A stretch of DNA of 64,000 nucleotides from Haloarcula sp. DT43. GTDB lineage: Archaea > Halobacteriota > Halobacteria > Halobacteriales > Haloarculaceae. The DNA is taken from NCBI RefSeq assembly GCF_037078405.1, contig NZ_JAYMGZ010000005.1:1-64000 (forward strand), written 5' to 3'. Each line of letters begins with the position of its first letter. The first letter of the stretch is position 1. The notes under the pieces are model-generated. The model did not search any database, had not been told where the DNA came from, and saw nothing but the letters and a program-made list of their open reading frames with translations. A program made the position numbers and the translations under genes. This document shows, piece by piece, positions 4,129 through 58,185 of the stretch.

Positions 4129-4991
4129 CCAGGCCTTCACCGACAGACGGTTTGGATGATCTCGTCGACAGGACTGCCCTGACGCATTCGGCTGAACAAC
4201 CGTATGGCGACCATGCACAGGTCTTGTCGCAAGTTGACGATCAATCCGCGCTGCTGGATGTGCCCGTCGCAATCTGTTGTCCGAACTGTGGCGAGGTAGT
4301 CACGCTGTACGAACGGGGCCTACCAAGCGATGTCCCGTACTTCGATACTGCATGCACACAATGTGACGTCGACTTACGGACGTGGTGTGCTGTTGGCGTT
4401 GACGCAGCCTATCTCCAGATTGTCGAACCCGAACCACTCACGACGATGGTTCAGCAATTCTGGGACGAGTGGCTCTGGAGTGGAATCACCAACAGCAAGG
4501 GTGAACCACGTACCGACGAGTATACCGAACGGTTCGCGACGAAAACTGTAGCTTTCGGGTGGGACTGGGAGGTTACCTGTCCACTGTGTCGACGCACACG
4601 TACTGATCTTGAACGTGACTCAGCACTCGTCGGCGGGAATCTAGACTATCACCACTGGTCGGACAACCCTGATCAAGGGGTCTGTCTCTGTCGCGAGTGC
4701 CACGATATCATCGGCTTCGACACCTATGATACAGAACTTGAGGAGCGAGCGGAATCATGGGGATTTGACTCTCGTCACGACCTGCAGGTCATTCGCCTTG
4801 CGCTTCGAGATGCTGCAGTAACCGGTCGGCCAGTTGGAACTCGATCTGCAACTGCTCTCGTCGATCGATATAATCTCCTGCACTCTCCCGAGTGCGTTCG
4901 CCAACTCCTCGGAAGTATCAGTACCGATGAGTCGCTCCGAGAACGGTTCCTTGATAAACGCATAGTGGCTGGTATCGAAGCAACCTGCTGA
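4125..4991 (+). CDS. HNH-type endonuclease domain protein with zinc ribbon (288 aa)
   Basis: An N-terminal zinc ribbon is formed by CPNCG (about residue 52) and CTQCD (about 76). The C-terminal half carries an HNH-like motif: CPLCRRTRTDLE, then LDYHHWSDNP, then CLCRECHDIIG. The paired cysteines and the HH-x(n)-CRECH order match zinc-structured HNH nucleases. The protein probably binds and cuts DNA, perhaps as a homing, restriction or phage-defence nuclease. It is coupled to the 88-residue gene upstream. ATG 4125 is supported by the overlap. The target is unknown. Confidence 0.65.
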   Translation: MTRPSPTDGLDDLVDRTALTHSAEQPYGDHAQVLSQVDDQSALLDVPVAICCPNCGEVVTLYERGLPSDVPYFDTACTQCDVDLRTWCAVGVDAAYLQIVEPEPLTTMVQQFWDEWLWSGITNSKGEPRTDEYTERFATKTVAFGWDWEVTCPLCRRTRTDLERDSALVGGNLDYHHWSDNPDQGVCLCRECHDIIGFDTYDTELEERAESWGFDSRHDLQVIRLALRDAAVTGRPVGTRSATALVDRYNLLHSPECVRQLLGSISTDESLRERFLDKRIVAGIEATC

Positions 4992-5411
4992 CGAGTAACA
5001 GATCAGACCGACACAATCGCGTTCCCAACTCACTAAGAGTGTAGCGACCAAGCGATGGAGATTAGACTCTTACCAGCAACGTTGCGTGAACCGCCGCGGG
5101 GTCAAGCCCCGAGGCACTCGGCCTGCCCCGCCTGTAGACCAGTGGCCACTGGCTGAGGAGGAATTGCGTCCCAAAATAGGTGGCATAGGACGGTAGTGTT
5201 GTGTGCATTCAATAGCGACTGGTTTGCTGGTAAATATGTACACACACCCGCTCTTTCTGCGAGATACTGCCACACTTGTGATGGCTACCGTGCTAATCAC
5301 CGCTTCATTTTCAGAGTATATCGCCTTCGAAACTGGAGTCGTCTGTCCAATCCGCCGAGTAACTAAAGTTGCTGGCTCTGGATGACAGTGTATAGTTGAT
5401 TGAGTAGAGCT
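4992..5411. other. Intergenic region with palindromes, possible IS remnant
   Basis: No convincing gene is present. A short hairpin CGGGG-TCAAG-CCCCG is seen near 5098-5112, and a perfect 12-base palindrome CAGTGGCCACTG lies at 5140-5151. The hairpin plus GC-rich context resembles subterminal structures of IS605-type ends, so this may be a decayed insertion end. A 60-residue hydrophobic frame at 5203-5385 has no supporting features. Confidence 0.3.
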
Positions 5412-5645
5412 ATGAAGCACACTGGCCAACCGCCTCTCCCAGATTGGATCCAAAGTGCCTATCAGACACTCGAGAGAGCGTATGGTTCAGACACCGACGA
5501 ACTTTCGAGGACTGACGCACATGAGTTCCTTCTGGCTGAAGCCGAGCATATTGAGGAGCACGCTGATGCAGTATATGCGGTTGATCGACTTCTTGACCGT
5601 GGCTGGCTCTACGAGGTCAATGGCCAACTTCGCAAAACCGAATAA
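5412..5645 (+). CDS. Small acidic helical protein, paralogue of the gene at 28.3 kb (77 aa)
   Basis: The protein contains LPDWIQSAYQTLERAYGSDT and ends AVDRLLDRGWLYEVNGQLRKTE. The gene at 28310-28543 encodes nearly the same protein (IREAYETLEAEYASGIDELS, then AIDRLLDRGWLYEVNDRLRKTE), showing a real conserved family. ATG 5412 is chosen over an in-frame TTG at 5400, by agreement with the paralogue. The C-terminal DRGWLYEV resembles the end of a winged-helix or a small adaptor. Function unknown. Confidence 0.7.
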   Translation: MKHTGQPPLPDWIQSAYQTLERAYGSDTDELSRTDAHEFLLAEAEHIEEHADAVYAVDRLLDRGWLYEVNGQLRKTE

Positions 5646-5732
5646 ACTGTACGTATCCACAGCGACGGTCTCTAACTCTGTATCACCTTTTTGTATTGTA
5701 ATGGTTGTGATACCCGATTTGTCCGGGAAACG

Positions 5733-5759
5733 GGGTTCCATGTACAAGGGGTGGAACCC
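5733..5759. repeat. Stem-loop GGGTTCCA / TGGAACCC
   Basis: Two perfect 8-base arms (5733-5740 and 5752-5759) enclose an 11-base loop in the gene-free stretch 5646-5920. It could be a transcription or RNA-stability hairpin for the gene ending at 5645, though it is 90 bases downstream of it. Nothing else is recognised in this gap. Confidence 0.35.
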
Positions 5760-5920
5760 GGAGCGTGTGACAAAGCCGAGTTCCATACTGTTTTCCGAAA
5801 GCTGGCAGTATAATAGCTACTAATTGAGTACCAGATTCTATCATCGATACAGTACGTCAGATAGACAACGGCAAACGGTAGATACGCCACCCACACAACT
5901 TCGCTACGACCGTCTTTGTC

Positions 5921-29355: not shown

Positions 29356-30462
29356 TTACTGCGCTTCTTCGACCAGTGTTTCGAGTTCTGTTAGCCGCGG
29401 CATTTCTGTGATGCCGCTGAACAAGACGAGTACTGACAACTTGGACTGATCTGGTGTCGGCATATCACCACTCCGTATCTCAGGTGACTGCAGTTCGTCT
29501 GCGAGCCACCGCTGGCCATCGGTAACCGCATCTCGGAGTAACCACGCGGGTGGCCCGGCAAACACGGTCAGGGCACTATCGGCCGAGTCCAGCGTACATT
29601 CGGCCGTCAGTTTATCACGCACCGCACGGCGAAGTGTTGTCTCGACGGCATCGTATGCTTCAATTTCATCAATATCGTCAGATTCATCGGCGAAAAACCG
29701 GCTTCGGAGTCGGTCGATGACGTTGCTTTCACCGGTGCCTTCGTCGGTTCCCAGTTCCTGACTGGCGTAGCCAAGCGTTGCGAAACGCGAGTCCGAGAGG
29801 GTATTAATTATTTCGCTGGCGTCGACGACACTCTGGCCGACAGACTTGGACTCTGTCGCCTCACCTGCCGCAAAGAGTGTCCCGAGTCGAGTCACAAGCG
29901 TCCCATTCAGCGATTCGGCAGCTTCATCAACAGTCTGCCCGCTGGTGAGCCAGGCTTCATTATCGAACAAAATTTGTCCATCGACAGTTGCTTCGAGCGT
30001 CTTAAGTGCTCGCATCGCGTCCACAGCTTCTTTTTCATCCCACCCGGCAGGCAAGACTGACACACAGTAGATTGGAATCGTGTAGATCTCCGCGAGTGCG
30101 TCAGCAATTTGGGCTGTGGCCCCACCACCTGTCCCGCCCGCCAGCCCAGTGACGAGGATAATTGCGTCGATATCGCTGGTTACCAGTGGGTCTATCGCCC
30201 GGCGAACTTCGCGCCGTTCGTCTTCGATAGCGGCGATAGCGCTCGTGCGATCGCGGTCGGTCCCATCCCCATCTGTTTCGAGGAGTCCGAAGCTATGGCG
30301 CTGGTCACCCGGGAGAGTGTTGAGTCGATTGAGCGCTTGGGTGTCCGTGTCGACTGCACAGGCCGTGCCGAGATACGCCGTCTCGCGACGTTCATAGTCT
30401 CGCCACAGCCGATCGACAATCCGGCCCCCAGCACCACCGATTCCAATTGCCGCAACTCGCAT
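29356..30462 (-). CDS. Tubulin/FtsZ superfamily GTPase (CetZ/FtsZ-like, 368 aa)
   Basis: The N-terminal GTP-binding fold is clear: AIGIGGAGGRIVDRL at residue 5, and the tubulin signature as TGLAGGTGGGATAQI (A108-A115), a variant of GGGTGSG. Length fits CetZ/FtsZ proteins. The first ~50 residues and the altered signature place it away from canonical FtsZ. CetZ-like proteins in haloarchaea shape cells or assist motility. ATG 30462 has a TATA-like TTATTAATATC about 25-30 bases upstream. No cell-division neighbours are present. Confidence 0.8.
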   Translation of the reverse strand: MRVAAIGIGGAGGRIVDRLWRDYERRETAYLGTACAVDTDTQALNRLNTLPGDQRHSFGLLETDGDGTDRDRTSAIAAIEDERREVRRAIDPLVTSDIDAIILVTGLAGGTGGGATAQIADALAEIYTIPIYCVSVLPAGWDEKEAVDAMRALKTLEATVDGQILFDNEAWLTSGQTVDEAAESLNGTLVTRLGTLFAAGEATESKSVGQSVVDASEIINTLSDSRFATLGYASQELGTDEGTGESNVIDRLRSRFFADESDDIDEIEAYDAVETTLRRAVRDKLTAECTLDSADSALTVFAGPPAWLLRDAVTDGQRWLADELQSPEIRSGDMPTPDQSKLSVLVLFSGITEMPRLTELETLVEEAQ

Positions 30463-42908: not shown

Positions 42909-45900
42909 TGTCTCTCATCGACCCGGTTCGTCTGAAACTCCAGGTCAGAGGATGCTCCTCGAGCACGCGCCCAGCTTCAACCCCACGAGGGTTCGTCTGA
43001 AACCGGCTCTTGCCAACTGGCGATGGTGGGTGGATAGGGCTTCAACCCCACGAGGGTTCGTCTGAAACGAATGTTGAGGATGTCCGCCGGCGGCGTCTCT
43101 CCGCTTCAACCCCACGAGGGTTCGTCTGAAACCGTCAGTCGGGCGTCTCGCCGCTGCCCTGCACGTCGCTTCAACCCCACGAGGGTTCGTCTGAAACTTG
43201 CATAATTACCATTTCTCGACCAGGTCAGCGACCAGCTTCAACCCCACGAGGGTTCGTCTGAAACTAGCCGTTGCATACGTGTCTAAACTATACGATGTCC
43301 GAGCTTCAACCCCACGAGGGTTCGTCTGAAACTCCTGAATGTCGAGCGTGACCTGCGCGTTGTGGTCGCTTCAACCCCACGAGGGTTCGTCTGAAACCAA
43401 CTTTGAGGGGTGGATATATTGCGATACCAAAGTGCTTCAACCCCACGAGGGTTCGTCTGAAACCAGCACTGAAAGACAGCTCCGACTGGAACCACGCGAT
43501 GCTTCAACCCCACGAGGGTTCGTCTGAAACCGGTATCGCATCGCTGGTGAACGAGCATCTACGCGGCTTCAACCCCACGAGGGTTCGTCTGAAACAGGAC
43601 CTCCACGTCGGTATCTTGGTCCGGCCGTGGGCTTCAACCCCACGAGGGTTCGTCTGAAACCTATCGCCACAAGTTGATGGACCTTCGCTTGTTTGCTTCA
43701 ACCCCACGAGGGTTCGTCTGAAACGGGCGACGACCAAGAACTTACCCGCGGCTATCAAGGTGCTTCAACCCCACGAGGGTTCGTCTGAAACTGGTCGTTG
43801 ATTCGCCGTTCAAAGTCGATGATAACCGGCTTCAACCCCACGAGGGTTCGTCTGAAACCTGGAGGACGAGGTCGACGCCGCCAGAGACGAAAAGCTTCAA
43901 CCCCACGAGGGTTCGTCTGAAACCTGGAGGACGAGGTCGACGCCGCCAGAGACGAAAAGCTTCAACCCCACGAGGGTTCGTCTGAAACCACGCTGCAAGA
44001 GGCAGCAGCAGCGGCGAAAAGCGCTTCAACCCCACGAGGGTTCGTCTGAAACACACTTACGGCGGCGCGGCCATCGGATCGATAGCCGCTTCAACCCCAC
44101 GAGGGTTCGTCTGAAACTCTCTCATCGTAACGGTGTTGAGCCCTGCGACTCGGTGGCTTCAACCCCACGAGGGTTCGTCTGAAACTTGGACCTCCCGGAA
44201 CCCGAGGACGACGAGGTGGGCGCTTCAACCCCACGAGGGTTCGTCTGAAACGAGTTCTTCGCCGGCCGTGACCGTCTCGCTGACGGGCTTCAACCCCACG
44301 AGGGTTCGTCTGAAACTCGGCCGACCGTCCGCTCGACGGAGAGGCCCGCCGTCGGCTTCAACCCCACGAGGGTTCGTCTGAAACCTCGCCTTGGAGGCCC
44401 TTCGGGTTGCCGTAGGACAGGCTTCAACCCCACGAGGGTTCGTCTGAAACGGTATTCGTCCTTGCTCGCGCCGGGCTTCATGACGGGGCTTCAACCCCAC
44501 GAGGGTTCGTCTGAAACGCGTCGGAATCGGGCCGCTCGCCACCGAATGGCAGCCGCTTCAACCCCACGAGGGTTCGTCTGAAACTCGCGTTGAGTCCTGC
44601 CATCCTACTGCGCCCCCTCGCTTCAACCCCACGAGGGTTCGTCTGAAACGACCTCGGGGATGTACTCGTCGGCGGCCGTGCCGCCGGCTTCAACCCCACG
44701 AGGGTTCGTCTGAAACGCGGCCTCTGCGGGAGCTGTAAACAAGCCGTGAGACAGCTTCAACCCCACGAGGGTTCGTCTGAAACCGGCGCGGGATAAGCGC
44801 TCGGCCTTGTCCGCGTCCGCTTCAACCCCACGAGGGTTCGTCTGAAACCATATCTCAGTGGACCTCGGCGTCGAGATGAGCGCCAAGCTTCAACCCCACG
44901 AGGGTTCGTCTGAAACCGGAGGTCGTACACGTCGGCGGTAATGTCTGGGTTGCTTCAACCCCACGAGGGTTCGTCTGAAACTCGAGCGCCAGATTCAGGA
45001 CGTGGGTCGCCGCGTCGAGCTTCAACCCCACGAGGGTTCGTCTGAAACCGTTAGTGATGGACGCCACGGGAAAAACAGCAAGCGCTTCAACCCCACGAGG
45101 GTTCGTCTGAAACGTCCACTTCGATAGCCGTACTGACCTCGTTCTTGCCGCTTCAACCCCACGAGGGTTCGTCTGAAACGACATCGGCCCTGGAGACGAC
45201 GTGGGTGTTCCCCCTGCTTCAACCCCACGAGGGTTCGTCTGAAACCGGCCTCGCCGGCGACCTCGAACACCGGCGGGCCCAGGCTTCAACCCCACGAGGG
45301 TTCGTCTGAAACGCCCACACTCTCGGTCGCTGGTCAGCCCGGTGATTGCTTCAACCCCACGAGGGTTCGTCTGAAACCGACCTTATCCTCGAAGCGGAAC
45401 AGGAGTATCAAGAGCTTCAACCCCACGAGGGTTCGTCTGAAACGCCCAGTTTGCGATAAGGCCCTCGTCACAGACGACGCTTCAACCCCACGAGGGTTCG
45501 TCTGAAACGTTTCGCGTCGGGATGATGGGCCGGCGCTTCGGCAAGCTTCAACCCCACGAGGGTTCGTCTGAAACAAATATTTCTTGGTCATGCTCGACAT
45601 TCATTGACGGCTTCAACCCCACGAGGGTTCGTCTGAAACTGTCAACAATCAGATGTGACGAGTCGGTGGTACGCACTGCTTCAACCCCACGAGGGTTCGT
45701 CTGAAACTGCGTTCGCGTTCAAGCAACTCGGGGCTCGGCAGACGCTTCAACCCCACGAGGGTTCGTCTGAAACGCGAGGTCCGTCTCTTCGTCGGTGTCC
45801 TCGTCCGGTCGCTTCAACCCCACGAGGGTTCGTCTGAAACGTTCCGCGATAGCGTCAAGCGATACGAGCATGACGTGCTTCAACCCCACGAGGGTTCGTC

Positions 45901-47014
45901 TGAAACCTGGAGGACGACGCCGATAGTGTCGGAGGCTCGGACGCTTCAACCCCACGAGGGTTCGTCTGAAACCCTCGCTTGACGTTAAGACCCAGCCAGT
46001 GCGAGCAGCTTCAACCCCACGAGGGTTCGTCTGAAACCGTAGCGGATCGGGTCTGTCGGACTGACGTTATCCGGGCTTCAACCCCACGAGGGTTCGTCTG
46101 AAACCGTTCCGCGATAGCGTCAAACGCTACGAGCATGACGTGCTTCAACCCCACGAGGGTTCGTCTGAAACTCGGGGAATTGTCTGATTATCGTCTCTAT
46201 GTTGCTGCTTCAACCCCACGAGGGTTCGTCTGAAACTTCCACATTTTCCACGAGATAGACGCGACGAACGCCGGCTTCAACCCCACGAGGGTTCGTCTGA
46301 AACACGGTAACGACGGGGCAAACCTTCGGCGGGGAGCGCTTCAACCCCACGAGGGTTCGTCTGAAACGTGAACTGTGTCCCACTTTCGGCCCCGAGGCCA
46401 GCGCTTCAACCCCACGAGGGTTCGTCTGAAACGCGACGGACTGGTGGGACCCGGACGGTGGCGGGCTTCAACCCCACGAGGGTTCGTCTGAAACCCGTTG
46501 GTTCGATAAGGTAGTCGCCATCTTGGTCGGTGCTTCAACCCCACGAGGGTTCGTCTGAAACTCTTCTTTATCTGTGTCGGTGGGGTCGTATCCAGATGGC
46601 TTCAACCCCACGAGGGTTCGTCTGAAACATTGTAAAGTAGCCGCGAGGGCGTAAGGCCCGTTCGGCTTCAACCCCACGAGGGTTCGTCTGAAACGCACGT
46701 GGACCGACGGCGACCCGCCGCCAGATCGGGCTTCAACCCCACGAGGGTTCGTCTGAAACAAGAGAAGGCCGAGCGGCAGTGGCAGGGCACGACGGCTTCA
46801 ACCCCACGAGGGTTCGTCTGAAACGTGTTCGGTCCGGTGTCGACGGCGTTACCCTGGGCTTCAACCCCACGAGGGTTCGTCTGAAACTCCAGCGTAAAGT
46901 CGTCTTGGCCCAGTTGGTCCTTGCTTCAACCCCACGAGGGTTCGTCTGAAACACGTGACTGGGTCACGGTCGTTGGACACCGTCGCTTCAACCCCACGAG
47001 GGTTCGTCTGAAAC
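42909..47014 (-). CRISPR. Type I-B CRISPR array, about 62 full repeats plus one degenerate
   Basis: Full 30-base repeats run from 42974 to 47014 with spacers of about 32-39 bases. In the transcribed (minus) orientation the repeat starts GTTTCAGACGAACCC and ends TCGTGGGGTTGAAGC. At the far left only the last 14 bases of a repeat remain (42925-42938), the usual decay at the leader-distal end, so the leader is on the right beside cas2. Two consecutive spacers are identical (43859-43893 and 43924-43958). Two others (45841-45876 and 46105-46141) differ at two positions only. Counts were made by eye and could be off by one. Confidence 0.97.
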
Positions 47015-47119
47015 CATGCCCGATATACGGGCCATAAGGCTGCTAACGGCGGGTCACAGTAAAGACCTTCCGTCGACCATCAATAGGGTGCTTCCCCCCG
47101 GGGGGTCGACGGAAACCGA
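47015..47119 (-). promoter_or_regulatory. CRISPR leader with an internal inverted repeat
   Basis: About 105 bases lie between cas2 and the first repeat. They contain TTCCGTCGACC (47068-47078) and GGTCGACGGAA (47104-47114), a perfect 11-base inverted repeat around CCCCCCGGGGGG (47094-47105). The hairpin may end the cas transcript or mark the integration region. The array promoter should lie here but no clear TATA box is seen. Confidence 0.6.
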
Positions 47120-47380
47120 CTATAGAAACCGCTGATCCTCAGTTGGATCGTCGCCGTAGACTGTCCGGTTGAGCAGTGTATCAGAAGACAGCTCGTAGAT
47201 GATTGCCGATTCACCTGGTTTCAGCAAATCATCAATCTCGTTTTTGAGCTTGGAGAGATCTCCCTCAGAGATTTCGCCTTCAAGAACTGAGTTCTGTACG
47301 TGAGTCAGATATCGACGACCAATTTTGAGCGCTTTCTGTGTTCGATCCGCTTCCAAATCGTATACCATCACCACGTACAT
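47120..47380 (-). CDS. cas2: CRISPR adaptation protein Cas2 (86 aa)
   Basis: MYVVMVYDLEADRTQKALKI shows the first strand and the conserved aspartate (D8) of Cas2, with a ferredoxin-like fold, and the length is typical. It works with Cas1 as the spacer-integration complex. It is the last gene of the cas operon; its start is one base after the cas1 stop. Confidence 0.95.
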   Translation of the reverse strand: MYVVMVYDLEADRTQKALKIGRRYLTHVQNSVLEGEISEGDLSKLKNEIDDLLKPGESAIIYELSSDTLLNRTVYGDDPTEDQRFL

Positions 47381-47381
47381 T

Positions 47382-48377
47382 TTACCACCACCGTTGGAAC
47401 GAGTCGTATGCTTCTCCGGTGAGGAGATGCTTTTTCAGTTTGTATGCTTCCAGCCGCATCAGGTACTGATAACTAACTTTTCGGTTGAGCGTCGGGTGTT
47501 CAACAGTACGTTCAAGCATTTCTTCGAACGCCTTCGTGTACGTTTTCCGACCAGCTTCGTTCAACAGACAGGAGCCGAGCTCGGTCTCGAAATCACTTTC
47601 AGAAATTTGATTCCGATTCACTAACCGGAATAGTACCCGGTCAGCGAGCACAGGTTTGAATAAGTCAGCGATATCAAGAGATAGCGAGTACCGCCGCTCA
47701 CCGGGCTCGTGTAGGTAGCTAATCGTCGGGTCGAGTGCAGTGGCTCGAATTGCTGAGACGCAGTTGGCGTAGACCAGCGAGTTGCCGAACGAAATGAGGC
47801 TATTAATCTCATTCGGTGGTGGGTTGTATTCCCGTTGGGTGAGTTGGAACTCGCTCGGAAGAATTTGGTTGAAGCTGCGGTAGTAGGCCTTTTTTGCGGT
47901 CGCCTCGATACCCATCAGTTCGTCAATCGGGAGACTCTCGTCAACGCGTGCTGCTGCGGCTTCCAAGTCCTCAATTACACTGTCGAGATCGTGATCTCGG
48001 CCGTTGTAGTAGACCACATTGGTTCGCATATTGTGGATACTCCCCTTCACAATCGCGGCGGCCAGTTGTCGTCGATGTTGACTGTCCTCATATGCTCGAA
48101 CTTGGTTGACTACAGTTTTCCCAGAAGTTTGGCCACGTTTCGGCATCACCGAGCCAGCGTAGTAATCCTCCCAGCCGAAGACGTGTAGCGCGACCGTTCG
48201 ATCGTTGAGGAACGACATCAGTCGCGTGTTAAAATCGATCTGGCCGTGTAAGAAGAATGCCTCAGCGTTCTCGATTGGAATATATTGCTTGTCCCCATCA
48301 TCGTCAGGAACAAGTCTGAGCGTGTCGTCACTGCGTTCGAGTCGACCGTCGGAAAAGACGTGGTAGTTCCTATCCAT
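47382..48377 (-). CDS. cas1: CRISPR integrase Cas1 (331 aa)
   Basis: The active-site triad can be followed in order: E in PPPNEINSLISFGNSLVY, H in ISYLHEPGERR, and D in SLDIADLFKP. MDRNYHVFSDGRLERSDDTL is the usual N-terminus for type I-B Cas1, so ATG 48377 is preferred over upstream codons. Cas1 cuts and joins new spacers at the leader end of the array, which lies directly downstream. Confidence 0.96.
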   Translation of the reverse strand: MDRNYHVFSDGRLERSDDTLRLVPDDDGDKQYIPIENAEAFFLHGQIDFNTRLMSFLNDRTVALHVFGWEDYYAGSVMPKRGQTSGKTVVNQVRAYEDSQHRRQLAAAIVKGSIHNMRTNVVYYNGRDHDLDSVIEDLEAAAARVDESLPIDELMGIEATAKKAYYRSFNQILPSEFQLTQREYNPPPNEINSLISFGNSLVYANCVSAIRATALDPTISYLHEPGERRYSLSLDIADLFKPVLADRVLFRLVNRNQISESDFETELGSCLLNEAGRKTYTKAFEEMLERTVEHPTLNRKVSYQYLMRLEAYKLKKHLLTGEAYDSFQRWW

Positions 48378-48379
48378 TG

Positions 48380-48928
48380 TTAACACCAACAGAAGTCGTG
48401 GTACGCACAGGAGTCACAGAACGGTTTCTCCTCGGCCGGCGGTGGCGAAGACTGACTGACGATATCGTGGATTCCGCGGATCGCAGTTTCGACTTTTTCG
48501 CTCCGCTCCGTGGTAAGTTCGACCGGCTCTCGCTTTCGTTCCCGTGGATGAGCTAAGACTCCGTCCCGCTGAATATCGGCCACACGGTCAAGATACCATA
48601 GGTAGTACGACAACTGCATCTCGGCCGGTTCAGTCAATGTCGAGGACGGTTTGACCTCAACGACACGGCCGTCGTCAAGCAGATCCAGTGAGATCATTCC
48701 GAGATGGAGGTTCTCGCGTTTGTCGCTGTAGGCTGTCTCGTCAACACGGGTGCCACGGACGACGGTCGCGTTCTCACGGTCAATTTCGAGGTTCCGGCTT
48801 TCGAACCAGAGTTCTCGTTTGCACACGTAGTAGTACTGCACCATCACGCCGGTCACGCGGAACGGCTCGTTGACTGGCTCACCGCGGGCCGTGGCCAGGA
48901 GCCGGTCAACAGGATCAGCGACCGTCAA
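48380..48928 (-). CDS. cas4: CRISPR-associated exonuclease Cas4 (182 aa)
   Basis: It has the RecB-like nuclease core (DDGRVVEVKPSSTLTEPAEM, then QLSYYLWYL) and iron-sulphur cysteines: one near the start in YYVCKRELWF and three at the end in PFCDSCAYHDFCWC. Cas4 trims prespacers and sets their PAM orientation. It overlaps cas3 by four bases and stands two bases before cas1. Confidence 0.95.
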   Translation of the reverse strand: MTVADPVDRLLATARGEPVNEPFRVTGVMVQYYYVCKRELWFESRNLEIDRENATVVRGTRVDETAYSDKRENLHLGMISLDLLDDGRVVEVKPSSTLTEPAEMQLSYYLWYLDRVADIQRDGVLAHPRERKREPVELTTERSEKVETAIRGIHDIVSQSSPPPAEEKPFCDSCAYHDFCWC

Positions 48929-51642
48929 AAGAATCGATCCTCCACACCGTATTCGCTCGGTTGCACGCCATATTCTGGGTCGAATATTGAATTCGATGCA
49001 GGGAGAATCCGTTCTGGGTCGTGCCGCTTCTCCTCTTCATCGAGTAACGGCTCCAGACTAAGGATACCGCTCGCTGCATCCGTATTTGCTCTTGGGACCG
49101 GAATCGAAACTCGAATCGATGCCAATTCATCCCGTTTTGAATCTACCTTATCGAACTTCCGTTCTTTCATAAGTGATTCAATGGCCGTTGCGGAGTCGTG
49201 TTCCTCCTTAGTCCGACACACGTATACCTCAACGGACTGCCGACGTTCGATGAGTGATGCTTCGCGCAGTGTCTTCCCGTCTGCCTGCTCGAATGCAGTC
49301 ACGAGATCATTGCTCTCGGAGACGCTGTGAACACGTTCTCCAACAGTATCATGGTAGCGTTCGATAGCATCCTTTGCCAGAACCTCGTCAGCAAACGCGG
49401 TTCCGTGTTCGTCCCGTACGGTTTCGAGAACGGATCGAGTGTGCATCAGGAGATCAGTCTCCCCTCGGTTTCGGTTCGGTGCGTACACCGCGGTTGATGG
49501 AGGTGTGTTGCCTTCGCCGGGAGGTTCGAGCTGCCAGACAGTGGTAACACCAGTTTCCGGTGCGCGTTCGTAGGAGCGGTTACACCGACCCGCCGCCTGT
49601 ACTATCGAATCTAGGGGGGCGAAGTCGCGGTAGACAGTGTCGAAGCTGATGTCGACCCCAGCTTCAACGAGTTGTGTCGAGATGAGTGCGAATAGAATAT
49701 CCATCCCGGCGAGGTCGTTCGCAACAGCAAGGAGAAACTGCCTGTCGCACGGGCGCACACGCGTTGTCAAGTGTAGATATGCTGCTGTCTCTTTTGTTCG
49801 AAGCTCCTCGACAACAGCGCGAACGAGCCGCCCGCGCTCAATACTCGGTCGTGGCTTGCCGTCGTACTCCTTTGTCGCTGACAGCCCACCGATTTCGTCT
49901 TCATCAAGCTGCTCTTCATACAATTCAGAGACAGTGACCGGATCAGTCTTGGATTCTGAGATACTATCCACAAATTCTCTCGTAAGCGTTCGAGTGCTTT
50001 CTATCGTGTTGCAGATCGCTAACGTCGTATCTCCGCTTACGATGGTTTCTGCGAGCAGGTTTGCTCCATCTGGGTGGGATAATCGATCCTCGTTTTCGGT
50101 GACTAGTGCTGTCGGATGGAGTTGATACTGTACTCTCGATGGTGGGTCACCAGTGAAAGCGGATTGTTCGATCTCGAGCAATTGTTCAGATGGAATAAGT
50201 TCGAACGAACCCTCAACGAGAGAGGGTTGGGTAGCGGTCATAAGCAACACCTGCGCATCGAACTGCTCAGTCAGCATATTGATGAGCTTCCGAACGATGG
50301 GCCACCAGTGCTGTGGGATCGCCTGTGGCTCATCGATAATAACAGTGCTACCCTGAAGCGCGGACAGTTTGAGCGACTGTCCGTTTCGTGGGCCAGCGAG
50401 ACTCTCAAACAACTGTACAAAGGTCGTTAGCGTCAGCCCGGTTCGCCAACTCTCTGCCAGTAGCACCTCGTGTGAAGCGTGTTCGTCCGTTTCGTCTTCC
50501 TCTTCGTTTTCGGTATCGGTTCTTGTTTCTGCGAGGTGGTGATGTACCGTCAGCAGATTACCGGATGTATCTGTCTCGAAAACTTCCTGTAGGGTTCCCG
50601 ATGTCTGGTCGATGATCGACGTAAACGGAAGTGCATACACGAGTCGTCCATCGTGGTCATCACAGAGTGTAAGGCCCGCAAGCAGGCCAGCGAATGTTTT
50701 TCCGTACCCTGTTGGAAGCGTTAACGTGGCCACCGATTGATTGCTTTCAAGAAATTCGTGTGTCTGTGCCGGGATCTCGTCTTGGACCTCGGTTCTGACC
50801 TCGTTTAGCTGATTTTCAATATCGTTTTGCGGTTCTCCTCCAAGCTCATTTAGATGTGTTTCAAGTTTATCGAGTGACGGATACTTACCCCATAGTCGGT
50901 TATCATCGGAGCCGATTCCTGCAGCATCCGTCTTATCTGCAAACGTTAGCGCGCCAAACAGGATCAAATGCGTTGTGTATATTGACTCATTGAACCGGGT
51001 ACCTTTCACTTCCAGTTCCCCAGCGAACCCCCCTTTCTTACCTGCATCTTCCACGATATCTGTAAGAATGGGTGAGTCAGAGACGTATCCGATTTTTTCT
51101 AGAAAATCGTTCCAAGCACCTTCACCGACTGCTTCCCTGAACAGATCACGGGCGAACGTCTCGGCATGTTCTTCGATTGTTTTGGCTTGCTCAATTGCCT
51201 GAATGGTTTGATTGCTCCCCACAGGATCGATTCGAGGTTCATCGAACGTCTTTCGGATATAGCTCGCTGCATCCGGGACATCGCCGTGGTGTTTAGCAAC
51301 GGCGAGCATTCCGGCTAACCGAGTTTCTCGCTCATATCCGTTCTGTTCAAGAAAGAAGTAGGCAACCAAACTACCGAGTCTTGCATGGTGTTTTGGAGGG
51401 TCATAGAACTCATCTCGGATGTATCGTTGAAATGCCGGTGTAGCCTTCGCAAAATCGTGAGCTAGACCGAGAAGCCGAGCTTTATTACTGAGTGGACTCT
51501 CAGTCTGTGATCGTGAGTTCTCGGACACAGCAGCAGCTCGGTCACTTACTCCAGTCAAGTGATCCCAGAGCGGTTTTTGTTCACGATTCGTCTCCGACGG
51601 ATGGGAAATGATTTCCTGCCCCGAGTCAAGCGTCCACGTCAT
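48925..51642 (-). CDS. cas3: CRISPR nuclease-helicase Cas3 (905 aa)
   Basis: An N-terminal HD nuclease (LLGLAHDFAKATPAF, later AVAKHHGDVPD) is joined to a superfamily 2 helicase. The helicase has Walker A LPTGYGKTFAGLL, the DExx box as IIDEPQAIPQ, motif III LLMTATQP and motif VI QAAGRCNRS. Single-gene HD plus helicase arrangement and length are normal for type I-B. It degrades target DNA after Cascade binding. Overlaps of four bases with cas5 and cas4 show tight coupling. Confidence 0.96.
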   Translation of the reverse strand: MTWTLDSGQEIISHPSETNREQKPLWDHLTGVSDRAAAVSENSRSQTESPLSNKARLLGLAHDFAKATPAFQRYIRDEFYDPPKHHARLGSLVAYFFLEQNGYERETRLAGMLAVAKHHGDVPDAASYIRKTFDEPRIDPVGSNQTIQAIEQAKTIEEHAETFARDLFREAVGEGAWNDFLEKIGYVSDSPILTDIVEDAGKKGGFAGELEVKGTRFNESIYTTHLILFGALTFADKTDAAGIGSDDNRLWGKYPSLDKLETHLNELGGEPQNDIENQLNEVRTEVQDEIPAQTHEFLESNQSVATLTLPTGYGKTFAGLLAGLTLCDDHDGRLVYALPFTSIIDQTSGTLQEVFETDTSGNLLTVHHHLAETRTDTENEEEDETDEHASHEVLLAESWRTGLTLTTFVQLFESLAGPRNGQSLKLSALQGSTVIIDEPQAIPQHWWPIVRKLINMLTEQFDAQVLLMTATQPSLVEGSFELIPSEQLLEIEQSAFTGDPPSRVQYQLHPTALVTENEDRLSHPDGANLLAETIVSGDTTLAICNTIESTRTLTREFVDSISESKTDPVTVSELYEEQLDEDEIGGLSATKEYDGKPRPSIERGRLVRAVVEELRTKETAAYLHLTTRVRPCDRQFLLAVANDLAGMDILFALISTQLVEAGVDISFDTVYRDFAPLDSIVQAAGRCNRSYERAPETGVTTVWQLEPPGEGNTPPSTAVYAPNRNRGETDLLMHTRSVLETVRDEHGTAFADEVLAKDAIERYHDTVGERVHSVSESNDLVTAFEQADGKTLREASLIERRQSVEVYVCRTKEEHDSATAIESLMKERKFDKVDSKRDELASIRVSIPVPRANTDAASGILSLEPLLDEEEKRHDPERILPASNSIFDPEYGVQPSEYGVEDRFF

Positions 51643-52469
51643 CTGAACACCACAGTTCGATTGTCAACGCTTGCCGTCGTTGTATCTGAAACGGTGAGTG
51701 AATTTCCATCCGGACTATACGTATAGGTCAGGTAGCTCGTCGTTCGCCGTCCCGAGAATTCTCCGGACGCTGTTGTCCGTTCCATGAACGCCGGTGATCG
51801 TTCCGTTCCATAGTTGACGTTTGGTTCCGGTATCACGCCATCAGGGTCTGGAACCGCAGAATCGACAGCGTGTGGTTCAGATTGTGCTACCGCTGTTACC
51901 TCGTATTCGCCGAGGTATTCGATGTCAGCCAAGTATTCGGAGAGACCAAGCGACGGCGTGTAGTATGCCTTTCCTTCCGCGAGATATTCTCGAAGTTCGT
52001 CGTACCGTTCGCCATCAGCAAGCCAAAGATCGATTCGATACTCGGGCTCAACGAGGACTTCGTAATTCGTTCGCTGTCTATCCTCTGTCGGATCTGGATA
52101 GTAGACACTGACTTTTCCGTATGTATTGACTCCTTTCAGCCCTTCTTGTGATGTAGTGAGGTTGTTTACTGGGAGATTTATTGTCCGCAGTTCGCTCACC
52201 GGCTCAATAGCCATCGCAGATGACTCGGGGCCGAACAGGTCGTAATACTGGTTACGCCCGATACCCAAAACTGCGGCCAAGAGCCCAGCGACGGTTGTTC
52301 TTGGGATTATTCGGTACGTGGTTTTCACTGTGTTCCCCTCAACGCGGCGGAAATGCCCCCACGGCCCGGATAGCCGAAACGACAGGCACCGATCTGGAAG
52401 AGAACGGGAAGTTGCCTCAGTGTCTTGGCTCGTACTCTCGTCGATGTGGTCGTCCAGTTCTGATTGCAT
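51639..52469 (-). CDS. cas5: Cascade subunit Cas5 (276 aa)
   Basis: A RAMP-type protein: CLSFRLSGPWGHFRRVEGNT forms the first strand and helix, then TTYRIIPRTTVAGLLAAVLG is the conserved Cas5 segment. It caps the crRNA 5' handle in Cascade. It overlaps cas3 by four bases and follows cas7 after 14 bases. The first ~25 residues are acidic and variable. Confidence 0.94.
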   Translation of the reverse strand: MQSELDDHIDESTSQDTEATSRSLPDRCLSFRLSGPWGHFRRVEGNTVKTTYRIIPRTTVAGLLAAVLGIGRNQYYDLFGPESSAMAIEPVSELRTINLPVNNLTTSQEGLKGVNTYGKVSVYYPDPTEDRQRTNYEVLVEPEYRIDLWLADGERYDELREYLAEGKAYYTPSLGLSEYLADIEYLGEYEVTAVAQSEPHAVDSAVPDPDGVIPEPNVNYGTERSPAFMERTTASGEFSGRRTTSYLTYTYSPDGNSLTVSDTTTASVDNRTVVFR

Positions 52470-52483
52470 CCCTGTATGATCCG

Positions 52484-53503
52484 TTAGTGATCGTAGACAT
52501 CGATTTCGTGGACTGATTCGAAGCGATCTTCGAGCGCACTAACGAATCCGTCGTCAAGTGTCTCGCCTTCAAGTGCTATGTCTAGCGCATCGTCAGCAAC
52601 GACATGCACGGTCTGAATGCGATCCTCATGGGAATTGAGACGGGAGACGAGGTCCGTCGCATCGACTGTTACGTCTTGGACTGTCCGGTAGGAGCGGGCG
52701 TCTTCGTCGTCGCCGACAACATCGAGTTCGTGCGTGAGGCCACCAATATGGAAACTGTCAGTGTCGTACTCGACACGAACGTAGAGCCGTGGCTCCTGTC
52801 CGACCTTACTACGGGTGATTGTTTGGTTTTTGATCGCACGCCAACAGGTTGAATCCAGTCGCTCAATATCCTCTGTTTTGAGGTTGGTATCCTCTGCGCC
52901 GTGTTCATCAACCAATCCATGGAACCCGATCAGGCCGTATTTGATCCGGTGATCATCCAGATCGAATCCGCCCTGTTCTTTTTCGTCGTCGGTTCCGATA
53001 ACACTAGTGAGGCTATTGTACTCCTCGTTTACCTCGACAGGGTGGAGCGTCTTTCCGGGTGAGAACTGGACCGGACCCGTAAGATGATCAGGCAGATGCG
53101 TTTCCAGGGCTTCTATAAGTTCATCAGCATCGGTGTCAATGCTGAACGTTGCACCGAACAATCGAGCGTCGATTGCATTGTCGAGGAATCTGTCGAAGCC
53201 ATCGAATCCCTCGTCTTCGATTTCCTCAACGGTCGTCACACCAAACGTATCTTTGAGTAACTCCTCTCGCTCTTTGGCGTATTCTCCGCGTTCGCTCGTA
53301 ATGTAGACACCCTCACCGTCTGCCTCAAACTGATCGCGGAGGTAGCGTTTCAGCCGAACGTCAGTGACGATTGCCTCGTTGGTTACAGGATCGATTCGCG
53401 GTCTGTTCGCTCCACTGAGCGGATTACCGTTTGGGTTCGCATCAACGGCATCGTACAGGAAGACGATTTCCGAACGGTTCTCGACGATATTATCGTTACT
53501 CAT
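52484..53503 (-). CDS. cas7: Cascade backbone subunit Cas7 (339 aa)
   Basis: SEIVFLYDAVDANPNGNPLS near the start and the NRPRIDPVTNEAIVTDVRLK segment are diagnostic of Cas7/Csh2 in type I-B. Several copies coat the crRNA guide. ATG 53503 is chosen because the upstream 40 codons belong to the end of cas8b in another frame; the genes overlap by eight bases. Confidence 0.95.
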   Translation of the reverse strand: MSNDNIVENRSEIVFLYDAVDANPNGNPLSGANRPRIDPVTNEAIVTDVRLKRYLRDQFEADGEGVYITSERGEYAKEREELLKDTFGVTTVEEIEDEGFDGFDRFLDNAIDARLFGATFSIDTDADELIEALETHLPDHLTGPVQFSPGKTLHPVEVNEEYNSLTSVIGTDDEKEQGGFDLDDHRIKYGLIGFHGLVDEHGAEDTNLKTEDIERLDSTCWRAIKNQTITRSKVGQEPRLYVRVEYDTDSFHIGGLTHELDVVGDDEDARSYRTVQDVTVDATDLVSRLNSHEDRIQTVHVVADDALDIALEGETLDDGFVSALEDRFESVHEIDVYDH

Positions 53504-55532
53504 TGTTAGTCTCCGAAGTGCTGGAATCGTTTTGTCCGTAGGCGATGCCCATCGCGTAGTGGAAGCGAAGATCTTGCGTCGATAGCTCCCAGTCGGTTGG
53601 TTCGGCTGTTTCAAGGCCGTCACACACAGTATCCATTAATTCTCCGTACATCGTCCCTGCATATTCATCAGAATAGACGATGTTGCTATCAACAACCTCC
53701 GTCGCAATTCGCCTGATATTGTGTTTGGTGAGGTTGTCTATCGGATACTGTTTGACCGCCGTCATGCTCTTACCTTCTCTACTTTGGTACCGGGAAATGC
53801 GGCCGACAAGTGCGCCGAGAGCAAATACTCCCTCCCTCGTTTTATCGCTCAATGCTGGGTGGTCTTCGATGAACTGCTCGAACTGTTCTTGACGATTATT
53901 TGCCGTCGTCTGTGATGTCTGATCGCTCATGTGTTGTGGCTGTGTTACGAGTCGCTCATCATCTGCGGTGAGCAAGTCACACGCTCTAAGCGCATTAAGC
54001 TGCACGTACTGCTGTGCGAGAGTCGCTATCGGGAACGGATATTGGCTGTCCGGATCGAATCGGTCTACCAACTTTGCGACGTACTCTTCAAGTAACTCCT
54101 CAACGCGAAGCTGTTTTCCACTGGCAATCGTCGCCGTCCCTCGGAATCGGAAATCGTCACTACTTGGATCATCGGCGTCATCACCGAGACAAGTCTCTCC
54201 AAGATATGCGACACTGGAGATAACATTTGAGAGAGGTTCCGGTTCCGTAATACTGAGCAGAGGGAACTTCTCGCGTTTCGGGAATATTTCTTTTTTCTCA
54301 ACCCATCGGCTATTTTGTACAGTCCGGTGTTGCTGGGTTATTTCTTCAATGATGTGAATTGATGCTGTTGGGGTCGCCGCAAGAACCCGCCACCGATCTT
54401 TTTGATATTTGTTAACAATGATGAGCGAGAACCGGATCGTATCTAGTCTATCAAGCTTCTTGAGCCGACGATACTTGTTTCCGACAGGAGATTCTTCATC
54501 GTCCGCCTCAACTTGTTCGCTCAGTAGTTCATATACTGCTCTTGCGCTGTCCGCGTCAATCTTCCCCGTCGGATACGGGAGATAGAACGCTGACGTCCCG
54601 GGAGCTGGGATAGCACACGCATCAAGGAACGTGTCCGCGTTCTGTGCCCGAATCGCCGCATCACGACCGAGGCCTTGCGTCTGCCACGACTGATCAGCAT
54701 TGAGAGCGGGGAACTTCTCCATCTGTTTTGAGAGATAGTGCTTCATCGGGTCGTCAACGACACCGTAGACCGTTTCGTCAGTGTCGAAAACGAAGCACGT
54801 CCCGTCGCCGGAGGCGTCTTCGGCTTCGTTTTTCGCTCGAAATTTACCCGTCTTGCGAGCCGCCATTGCTTCTTGAAGAACTTCGATTTCACCGGGATAA
54901 TGCCACATTTCGTCGGGCTGGAACTGCGCCGTTGTGGTCAACACATCATCGTCGAATGCAATAGCGACTGTATGGAGGAGTTGTCCTTCTTTGGAAACGA
55001 GTGACTCGACTTCCTCTCGAATTTTTGTTTCGACTGAATCATCTTCTCCCAACTCCGCTAACGTCTCAATTAGCCAGCCGTCATCGTGTTCTGATGCCGC
55101 TTCGATTACAGCATCTTCTGTAGGCCAGCGCTCCAATCGCTCGAAAGCATGGTCGCTATGCTTTTCCGGTCCGTTGGTCTGTCCAGACTGATGAGTGATG
55201 CTGTGATCAACGCCCATCGCAGCACTGAATTTTGAATGGGCTACACGTGACACCAGATCCTCAGGGAACATTTCGAGCCTGACTGGTGGGTCTCCGAGTG
55301 TTGCTTTTTCACCTCTGAGATCGACACGAACGACAACTAGTGTCTCGTTTCCAATCTGATCGGCAGCAGCGTCCGGAGTCAGGTATGCGCCATATGGCCC
55401 CGTCAATCCTCGACCGAGCGTATACAGGGCCCCGTAGAGCACCTCGATGTCACGGAGCGATGCGACCGGACGACGTGGAATCGTCGATTCAATCGTTTTG
55501 TCAGCCACGTCCTCAAGGGCTTCCGTGTTCAT
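53496..55532 (-). CDS. cas8b: Cascade large subunit Cas8b (678 aa)
   Basis: Position between cas6 and cas7, length, and sequence character identify the Csh1/Cas8b family. Typical parts are LRDIEVLYGALYTLGRGLTG, DADDPSSDDFRFRGTATIAS and RIATEVVDSNIVYSDEYAGT. A region with CFVFDTDETVYGVVDD is also typical. The protein recognises the PAM and helps recruit Cas3. Its ATG overlaps the last base of cas6. Confidence 0.9.
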   Translation of the reverse strand: MNTEALEDVADKTIESTIPRRPVASLRDIEVLYGALYTLGRGLTGPYGAYLTPDAAADQIGNETLVVVRVDLRGEKATLGDPPVRLEMFPEDLVSRVAHSKFSAAMGVDHSITHQSGQTNGPEKHSDHAFERLERWPTEDAVIEAASEHDDGWLIETLAELGEDDSVETKIREEVESLVSKEGQLLHTVAIAFDDDVLTTTAQFQPDEMWHYPGEIEVLQEAMAARKTGKFRAKNEAEDASGDGTCFVFDTDETVYGVVDDPMKHYLSKQMEKFPALNADQSWQTQGLGRDAAIRAQNADTFLDACAIPAPGTSAFYLPYPTGKIDADSARAVYELLSEQVEADDEESPVGNKYRRLKKLDRLDTIRFSLIIVNKYQKDRWRVLAATPTASIHIIEEITQQHRTVQNSRWVEKKEIFPKREKFPLLSITEPEPLSNVISSVAYLGETCLGDDADDPSSDDFRFRGTATIASGKQLRVEELLEEYVAKLVDRFDPDSQYPFPIATLAQQYVQLNALRACDLLTADDERLVTQPQHMSDQTSQTTANNRQEQFEQFIEDHPALSDKTREGVFALGALVGRISRYQSREGKSMTAVKQYPIDNLTKHNIRRIATEVVDSNIVYSDEYAGTMYGELMDTVCDGLETAEPTDWELSTQDLRFHYAMGIAYGQNDSSTSETNNE

Positions 55533-56305
55533 CAGTTTGCCTCCTTGAGATTCACAAATCCGAGCCCCAGCGAGTTCCGTTCACCGAGCCCACAATCCAA
55601 CGCGAGGTTCAAGTGTCGACGGTGATGATCGTCCCGAACCGTGTACTCGAACTGCCATTTGCTCAGGACGTAGGTCATCTCTTGGCCCTCAGTGACAGTC
55701 ACTGGGATGGCGAACGTCTTGAGTAGTTCGTAGCCGTCGAACAGGTCGCCGTCGACATCGCTCGGCCCCGGTAAGTAGTCGTGGGCGAAGCGGTCATGTT
55801 TCTGATCGAGGTTGTCCTCCAACTGCCTCCGGAGCGGCTCCATCGAATGTTCCGGCCGCCAGAAGACGGCGGTGTCGCCGCCGGGATGGTCGATACCGTA
55901 CTCGTCGCATCGCCACGGTGGAATCCGAACCAGTAGACCAGTTCCGGTTTCAATTGTCCCGCGCGTGCCCGGCTCGCCGACATCGGGCGACAGCGACGTG
56001 ACATCGTCAACGCGAAACGGCATTTCGCCGATGTTCAGTTCCGGTTCCTCCAGCAAGTCAGCAGCGACGTGTGCCAGTAACTCCTCCTCTGGCGAGGCGA
56101 CCAATAGCTTCCGGTCATCACCTGCCTCCATATCGTGGGGAGGGAACGGGTTGGAGTAGGCGAACCCCGGCGGCTGGCCGTCGTCATGGCGTTGATCGTA
56201 CTTGGTATCGTCAAGCGCGTCCCAGAGCCGGCCACGGAGCTTGTGGTGATAATCGTTCTGATAAGCTGCATCCGTGCGTGCCGACAAATGAGCCATTACA
56301 CGCAC
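55532..56305 (-). CDS. cas6: crRNA-processing endonuclease Cas6 (257 aa)
   Basis: It has a ferredoxin-like N-terminal half with the YHHKLRGRLWDAL motif and the C-terminal glycine-rich loop CGLGERNSLGLGFVNL that defines Cas6. It cuts the repeat RNA to make mature crRNAs. GTG 56305 is favoured because it completes the first beta-strand (MRVMAHLSARTDAAY); ATG 56296 is the alternative. It is the first gene of the operon, with an AT-rich promoter region upstream. Confidence 0.93.
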   Translation of the reverse strand: MRVMAHLSARTDAAYQNDYHHKLRGRLWDALDDTKYDQRHDDGQPPGFAYSNPFPPHDMEAGDDRKLLVASPEEELLAHVAADLLEEPELNIGEMPFRVDDVTSLSPDVGEPGTRGTIETGTGLLVRIPPWRCDEYGIDHPGGDTAVFWRPEHSMEPLRRQLEDNLDQKHDRFAHDYLPGPSDVDGDLFDGYELLKTFAIPVTVTEGQEMTYVLSKWQFEYTVRDDHHRRHLNLALDCGLGERNSLGLGFVNLKEAN

Positions 56306-57245: not shown

Positions 57246-58185
57246 AGGCTCTGGTGAATCGCTGTACGGCGTCGGCTTCGACCGTCAGAACTAGGAAGGT
57301 GAAGCGGGAAACCGCAGATGGTTCATGTCTAAGATTTCCCGCTTCACTAGCAAAGCGGTCCAGTTAGCTAAAAATGCTGTTGGAGACCGAGGCGAAGTCG
57401 CCGCCCCCGAAGGGGGTGGCGGCTTCGCCGAGTATGCGGTGCTGTCGCTGCACTGTCTGCGGGTTTACTTGGAGAAATCCTACCGAGAATCACTTGATTT
57501 GCTGAGCGAGATGCCACATATTCTTGGGGAGATCGGCCTCGAGGCGGCCGATCTCCCACATCACTCGACGCTAGTGAAGTGGTTTGACAGGATCAAGACA
57601 GCACTCTGGCGAGTGCTGCTGCGCCTCTCGGCGCAGTTGCACGACCCGAGCGGACACGCTGCTATCGACGCGACGTTCTTCGACCGCGAAAACGCTAGCA
57701 ATCACTACTGCCGGCGGACGAATTACCGGGTGCAGACGCTCAAAACAACCGCTCTCGTGGACACAGAAAGCCACGCGATTCTGGACGTTCACTGTACGAC
57801 TGAGAAAACGCACGACACACAGCTCGGCTGGCAGGTCGCCCGCCGCAACGCGGGCGACCTTGCCAGCCTCGCCGCCGACAAGGGCTACGATTGGATGGAG
57901 TTACGCGAAAAACTCCGCGAAGAAGGCGTGAGACCACTGATAAAGCATCGTGAGTTCCGGCCCATCGATCCGCGCGTTATGCGCGTGATCGATGGGCCTC
58001 GCTACCGGCAACGAGCGCTGTGTGAGACCGTCTTCTCGACGATCAAGCGCACGCTCGGCGACGCCGTGCGTGCGCGAACTTGGTATGGCGAGTTTCGAGA
58101 ACTCGTGTTGATGTGTGCAGTTTACAACATCAAGCAGGCTGTGAAACCGTGAAATCAAGCACCGTCTGGCGATTCACCACGGCCC
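57246..58185 (+). mobile_element. IS5-family insertion sequence
   Basis: Terminal inverted repeats frame the transposase gene: AGGCTCTGGTGAATCGC at the left (57246) and, on the complementary strand, GGGCCGTGGTGAATCGCC at the right (ending at 58185). They share about 12 of the first 15 positions. The total of about 940 bases and a single DDE transposase gene agree with IS5-type elements. No target duplication is evident. The region 57061-57245 before it holds no gene that I can support. Confidence 0.75.
57325..58152 (+). CDS. IS5-family DDE transposase (275 aa)
   Basis: The catalytic triad is intact: D in HAAIDATFFDRENAS, D in LAADKGYDWMELREKL, and E in RALCETVFSTIKRTLGDAV. The N-terminal part (GFAEYAVLSLHCLRVYLEKS) is the helical DNA-binding half. 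Length is typical. The gene fills the insertion sequence and shows no damage, so the element may be mobile. Confidence 0.92.
   Translation: MSKISRFTSKAVQLAKNAVGDRGEVAAPEGGGGFAEYAVLSLHCLRVYLEKSYRESLDLLSEMPHILGEIGLEAADLPHHSTLVKWFDRIKTALWRVLLRLSAQLHDPSGHAAIDATFFDRENASNHYCRRTNYRVQTLKTTALVDTESHAILDVHCTTEKTHDTQLGWQVARRNAGDLASLAADKGYDWMELREKLREEGVRPLIKHREFRPIDPRVMRVIDGPRYRQRALCETVFSTIKRTLGDAVRARTWYGEFRELVLMCAVYNIKQAVKP

Follow-up and report, generated by a model that had tools for sequence, protein, structure and literature searches.

The window, that is, the whole stretch of 64,000 nucleotides of Haloarcula DNA analysed here, carries a CRISPR array next to a complete type I-B gene set. The eight cas genes were identified above curated cut-offs and lie contiguously at 47120-56305 on the minus strand in the order cas6-8b-7-5-3-4-1-2. 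The features of the locus are as follows.

42974..47014, minus strand: CRISPR array of 62 identical 30-nt repeats (GTTTCAGACGAACCCTCGTGGGGTTGAAGC on the minus strand) and 61 spacers, by exact parsing
43859..43958, minus strand: spacers 14 (43859-43893) and 15 (43924-43958) with the repeat between them, an exact tandem duplicate serving as the contrast case of true duplication
45841..45876, crRNA strand minus: spacer 44, 36 nt, GTTCCGCGATAGCGTCAAGCGATACGAGCATGACGT, AAG-CGA haplotype, 18th from the leader, older
46105..46141, crRNA strand minus: spacer 48, 37 nt, CGTTCCGCGATAGCGTCAAACGCTACGAGCATGACGT, AAA-CGC haplotype, 14th from the leader, younger
47015..47119, minus strand: leader region between cas2 and the first repeat, where new spacers would be inserted (polarity inferred)
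47120..47380, minus strand: cas2, open reading frame with Pfam PF09827 (CRISPR_Cas2)
47382..48389, minus strand: cas1 (type I-B Cas1b), TIGR03641 above cut-off
48380..48928, minus strand: cas4, TIGR00372 above cut-off
48925..51642, minus strand: cas3 (helicase and HD nuclease), TIGR01587 and TIGR01596 above cut-off
51639..52469, minus strand: cas5b, TIGR02592 above cut-off
52484..53623, minus strand: cas7 / csh2, TIGR02590 above cut-off
53496..55532, minus strand: cas8b / csh1, TIGR02591 above cut-off, and PF09484
55532..56305, minus strand: cas6, TIGR01877 above cut-off

As the repeat orientation and the cas operon both point to the minus strand, the crRNA was assigned to this strand and the leader to 47015-47119. 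It follows from this position of the leader that the high-coordinate end shared by spacers 44 and 48 should be their PAM end. By the same layout of the locus, spacers at high coordinates would be the younger ones and spacer 48, being closer to the leader, would be younger than spacer 44. The 396-base stretch comprising the last repeat, the leader, and cas2 is 86-97% conserved in four congeners, and no spacers are common to the window array and the arrays of these congeners, as expected for a locus with rapid spacer turnover. The gap between cas2 and the array also contains a degenerate repeat-like element (47087-47116) that agrees with the repeat at 21 of 30 bases, against 18 at best for 20 shuffles, and lies inside a strong hairpin; it may serve as a terminator or leader motif, or be a relic of the CreA kind. 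An IS5-family transposase gene (57325-58152) is located about 1 kb past cas6.

Among the 61 spacers, only the pair 44/48 and the exact neighbours 14/15 reached the similarity cut-off. Spacers 44 and 48 differ by two substitutions (AAGCGA versus AAACGC) at positions 15 and 18, counted from their common PAM end, and a likeness this close over 36 nt is far more than chance would produce. The earlier note had described the two spacers as identical except for these six bases; both substitutions are real, but the note passed over one additional C that spacer 48 has at its low-coordinate, PAM-distal end. As the note had also read them, both spacers translate to FRDSVKRYEHDV in its frame, with the changes at third codon positions. 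For two random changes, the odds that both are silent are about 3%, synonymous changes being 18 of the 108 possible single ones. The offset between the PAM ends of the two spacers is 0, three other spacers lie between them, and the neighbours of spacer 44 are unlike those of spacer 48.

The search for the protospacer led to a viral gene. Spacer 48 gave a single significant match in 50,697 phage records, namely the tail-tube gene of HRTV-29 (M1M40_gp62), with 37 of 37 bases covered, 89% identity, and an E value of 2e-5. Position by position, spacer 44 agrees with HRTV-29 at 34 of 36 bases (two mismatches, 30064-30099) and spacer 48 at 33 of 37 (four mismatches, 30063-30099), the PAM being TTC in both cases, and the additional C of spacer 48 is the viral base at that site. 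The protospacer is codon-aligned with the tail-tube gene, which encodes FRDTVKRYEHNV against the spacer peptide FRDSVKRYEHDV; the matched site is thus neither in non-coding DNA nor in another reading frame, and the note's proposal of a conserved viral or plasmid gene read in this frame holds for a virus. Next to the shared end, the three bases of the coding strand read GAA, which makes them TTC on the strand of the crRNA. This is the PAM of 91 of the 97 acquisitions in the type I-B system of Haloarcula hispanica (PMC3936756), so the common boundary is indeed on the PAM side, as had been supposed. The same TTC stands on the 5' side of the protospacer (crRNA strand) in HRTV-29 and in the contigs L006, L007, L008, L010, and L015.

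Both haplotypes of the spacers are present in viral relatives. AAG-CGA was seen in HRTV-29 and the contigs L007 and L009, and AAA-CGC in L010, HFTV1, and L021. In the relatives as a whole, the two codons read AAG-CGA, AAG-CGG, or AAA-CGC, and AAA is invariably paired with CGC (HFTV1, HRTV-4, and IMG/VR contigs). The Asp codon was missing from the first set of relatives and is present in two viral contigs with VKRYEHDV. Both spacers contain AGC (Ser) and GAC (Asp), two codons that never occur together in any virus compared. For this reason, we consider the two source variants to be close relatives of each other; it should be noted that a duplication would give the same likeness.

The exact protospacer was not found in IMG/VR, in the phage or plasmid collections, or in 392 genomes of the order, the best match being 34 of 36 bases. 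As neither spacer matched exactly, the virus recorded in the array, in two source variants, would be a distinct and unsampled relative of the known Haloferuviridae. The note had offered the peptide for searching: relaxed patterns in IMG/VR recovered the tail-tube family together with the VKRYEHDV member, and back-translation of the exact peptide gave no match in IMG/VR. In the plasmid collection, the spacer gave chance matches only and the tail-tube protein gave none. No family was named for the tail-tube protein by Pfam and PHROGs.

Spacers 44 and 48 are not the only ones directed against this viral family. With at most nine mismatches allowed, 12 of the 61 spacers match Haloferuviridae; reversed spacers gave 0 matches, five sets of shuffled spacers 0-1, and three other haloviruses 0. 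This is the highest count of the 66 loci surveyed. Together with spacer 29, which is clear at the protein level only, the matching spacers make up at least a fifth of the array, and since detection is limited to conserved genes, their real share may exceed this. TTC was present at the best match for six of the 12 matching spacers. The targets include the terminase, portal, capsid stabiliser, baseplate hub, tail tube and the gene following it, as well as a methyltransferase, and the spacers outside the pair 44/48 are listed here.

43725..43761, minus strand: spacer 12, baseplate hub gene of HFTV1, 6 mismatches, PAM TTC in L010
44186..44221, minus strand: spacer 19, portal gene (HRTV-29), 6 mismatches, PAM CTC
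44252..44286, minus strand: spacer 20, capsid-stabilising gene (HRTV-29), 6 mismatches, PAM TTG
44317..44354, minus strand: spacer 21, gene after the tape measure (HFTV1 gp41), 7 mismatches
44385..44420, minus strand: spacer 22, terminase large subunit, 5 mismatches to HRTV-4, and 6 to HFTV1, there with PAM TTC
44849..44886, minus strand: spacer 29, terminase at the protein level only (HISVDLGVEMSA / HVSVDLGVEMSA), score 57 versus a maximum of 50 in both controls
44917..44951, minus strand: spacer 30, DNA methyltransferase (HFTV1 gp60), 9 mismatches
44982..45018, minus strand: spacer 31, Haloferuviridae-like contigs L021, L013, and L012, 4-6 mismatches, PAM TTC in all three
45114..45149, minus strand: spacer 33, terminase (HFTV1 658-693), 9 mismatches, identical peptide GKNEVSTAIEVD, PAM TTC
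45378..45413, minus strand: spacer 37, HFTV1 gp36 (gene after the tail tube), 9 mismatches
45509..45544, minus strand: spacer 39, N-terminus of the terminase, 6-7 mismatches, identical peptide FRVGMMGRRFG, PAM TTC

Spacers 39 and 33 address adjoining terminase sites on opposite strands (HFTV1 627-662 and 658-693), and both sites have a TTC PAM. The second array of the host (L053, G000:C5:88000-100000, at 4249-5917) has a different repeat, GTTACAGACGGACCCTTGGGCGGTTGAAGC, in 26 copies, and four of its 25 spacers match Haloferuviridae-like contigs, L012 best. A solitary CRISPR repeat, GTTTCAGACGAACCCATGTGGGATTGAAGC, was also seen outside the arrays (G000:C8:30538-30567, about 5539-5568 of L023) on a contig of 50.7 kb that carries 36-bp direct repeats as well; possibly, it is a remnant or a crRNA-like gene.

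Pairs of similar spacers were then compared in a survey of 67 haloarchaeal arrays with 3,051 spacers from 66 loci, namely the window, five further regions (one for the host's second array and four from congeners), and 60 regions taken from the surroundings of Cas1 relatives within the order. Forty pairs in adjacent positions or consecutive blocks were grouped as duplicates; they are exact and of equal length, with 0 changes in 1,429 aligned bases, a grouping that itself requires exactness, and the sole adjacent pair departing from it (L111 11/12) has four changes and unequal length. Blocks of two to four repeat-spacer units, duplicated exactly, were seen in L080 (spacers 41-49), L102 (25-30), L105 (17-24), and L106 (7-12). 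The other near-identical pairs on the same strand number 30, of which 27, in 16 loci, keep the PAM-side end and three have it shifted. These 27 pairs are not 27 independent events, as several lie in one cluster (L092, L107). Twenty of them are of unequal length at the distal end, three are equal in length with changes, and four are identical; one of the identical pairs (L066 42/44) belongs to a tandem triplet and is therefore in truth a duplication. The pair 44/48 falls in the PAM-anchored group and not among the duplicates. Exactly two changes were found in this pair and in pairs from L051 and L052, where both are silent in one codon phase, and also in L107 14/26, where they are not. Between genomes, the cut-off was reached by three pairs of common spacers, including one pair without any difference over 37 nt.

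From these results, we conclude that the type I-B system, very probably, took up the same protospacer on two separate occasions, from two variants of a single Haloferuviridae-like tailed virus. The earlier note had suggested two separate acquisitions from gene variants at one PAM, and the protospacer, its PAM, the contrast with true duplicates, and the viral haplotypes all support this suggestion. Three other explanations were weighed against it.

The best placed of them is that viral escape from the first spacer directly provoked the uptake of the second, which we regard as improbable. Of the 34 substitutions in re-sampled pairs that show any, 12 fall in the eight PAM-proximal positions, and this is the direction expected of escape; however, the excess falls short of significance (two-sided p = 0.10), and the pairs do not count as independent. 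The changes between spacers 44 and 48, at positions 15 and 18, lie outside the PAM-proximal seed. Guides of type I systems are generally unpaired at multiples of six, and position 18 is one of these. Escape from spacer 44 is therefore an unlikely cause of the second uptake.

That one of the two spacers arose as a duplicate of the other inside the array and later gained two point mutations and one inserted base is very unlikely. Array duplications do occur in the window array, spacers 14/15 being an example, and in its relatives; moreover, spacers 44 and 48 have 34 of 36 bases in common, including the two codons unseen together in known viruses. The surveyed duplicates, however, are exact neighbours or blocks of equal length, whereas spacers 44 and 48 are separated, PAM-anchored, and unequal in length, and the spacers flanking them do not match. 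At the 95% upper bound of the divergence of duplicates, two changes in 36 nt have a p of about 0.003, and their both being silent is a further 0.03. Mutation after duplication would also have had to recreate a viral haplotype by two synonymous changes and to add the viral base. The duplication with mutation that the note had named as its counter-case is thus disfavoured.

A plasmid or provirus gene as the source instead of a free virus has very little probability: the exact source is absent from the collections searched, Haloferuviridae can include temperate members (PMC8651126), and one genome of the order has two distant tail-tube relatives, but the plasmid collection, 146 family genomes, and the host genome yielded no such relative; the host genome holds no copy of the protospacer outside the array, and no proviruses were found by the peptide pattern in genome contigs.

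The mechanism behind two acquisitions from two viral variants is ordinary. Cas1-Cas2, with Cas4, would set the PAM-side end at the same TTC, and the distal end would be free to shift by a single base, giving one spacer of 36 and one of 37 nt. As the two differences between the source variants would lie at third codon positions, the encoded peptide is the same for both spacers. Infection on two occasions, each time by a different variant and the later time giving spacer 48, would account for the order in the array. The second uptake was probably primed by older spacers, spacer 44 and several others against Haloferuviridae among them, since these would partly match the newcomer and adaptation in H. 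hispanica strictly needs priming by a partly matching spacer (PMC3936756). The mismatches of spacer 44 to the newer variant, at positions 15 and 18, are outside the PAM-proximal 8-10 nt. Repeated encounters are to be expected, as 12 of 61 spacers match Haloferuviridae. An acquisition hotspot is not needed: with uniform sampling, about 0.06-0.2 coincident pairs are expected for 12-16 spacers and about 850-1,550 TTC sites.

It seems reasonably likely that haloarchaeal type I-B arrays routinely re-sample one protospacer as viruses drift, and that this Haloarcula strain has repeatedly fought an unsampled lineage of Haloferuviridae, which widens the host range of the family. If so, such arrays hold ordered pairs of one viral site within one cell lineage. 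Spacers 44 and 48 form a clean natural record of repeated infection, in which a single host lineage encountered first one variant of a viral gene and then another. The comparison also suggests a rule: re-acquisition leaves pairs that are PAM-anchored with a free distal end and silent changes, and duplication leaves exact neighbours of equal length. The pair supplies concrete protospacers for finding the missing virus, namely GTTCCGCGATAGCGTCAARCGMTACGAGCATGACGT followed by GAA.

Li et al. (NAR, 2017) reportedly described variation of spacer size at the PAM-distal end in the I-B system of H. hispanica, which would explain how one protospacer can yield spacers of 36 and of 37 nt while the PAM end stays fixed. 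The closest known system is that same type I-B system, alike in genus, subtype, TTC PAM, leader-end insertion, and primed adaptation; there, however, spacers were acquired in culture from one virus (HHPV-2) and plasmids (PMC3936756), whereas here one site was sampled from virus variants in a natural array. The Legionella type I-C system, too, is known to have taken up one protospacer independently more than once, in that case by priming with laboratory plasmids carrying one target sequence, without sequence variants (PMC5071653). On the viral side, HRTV-29, HRTV-4, and HFTV1 (PMC8651126, PMC12418951) bear the protospacer in their tail-tube gene, and their other genes match ten or more further spacers of the array. 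The Haloferuviridae isolates infect Halorubrum and Haloferax (PMC12418951), whereas the unsampled relative recorded here met a Haloarcula host; the spacers thus point to a host range of this family that extends past the hosts of the isolates to Haloarcula.
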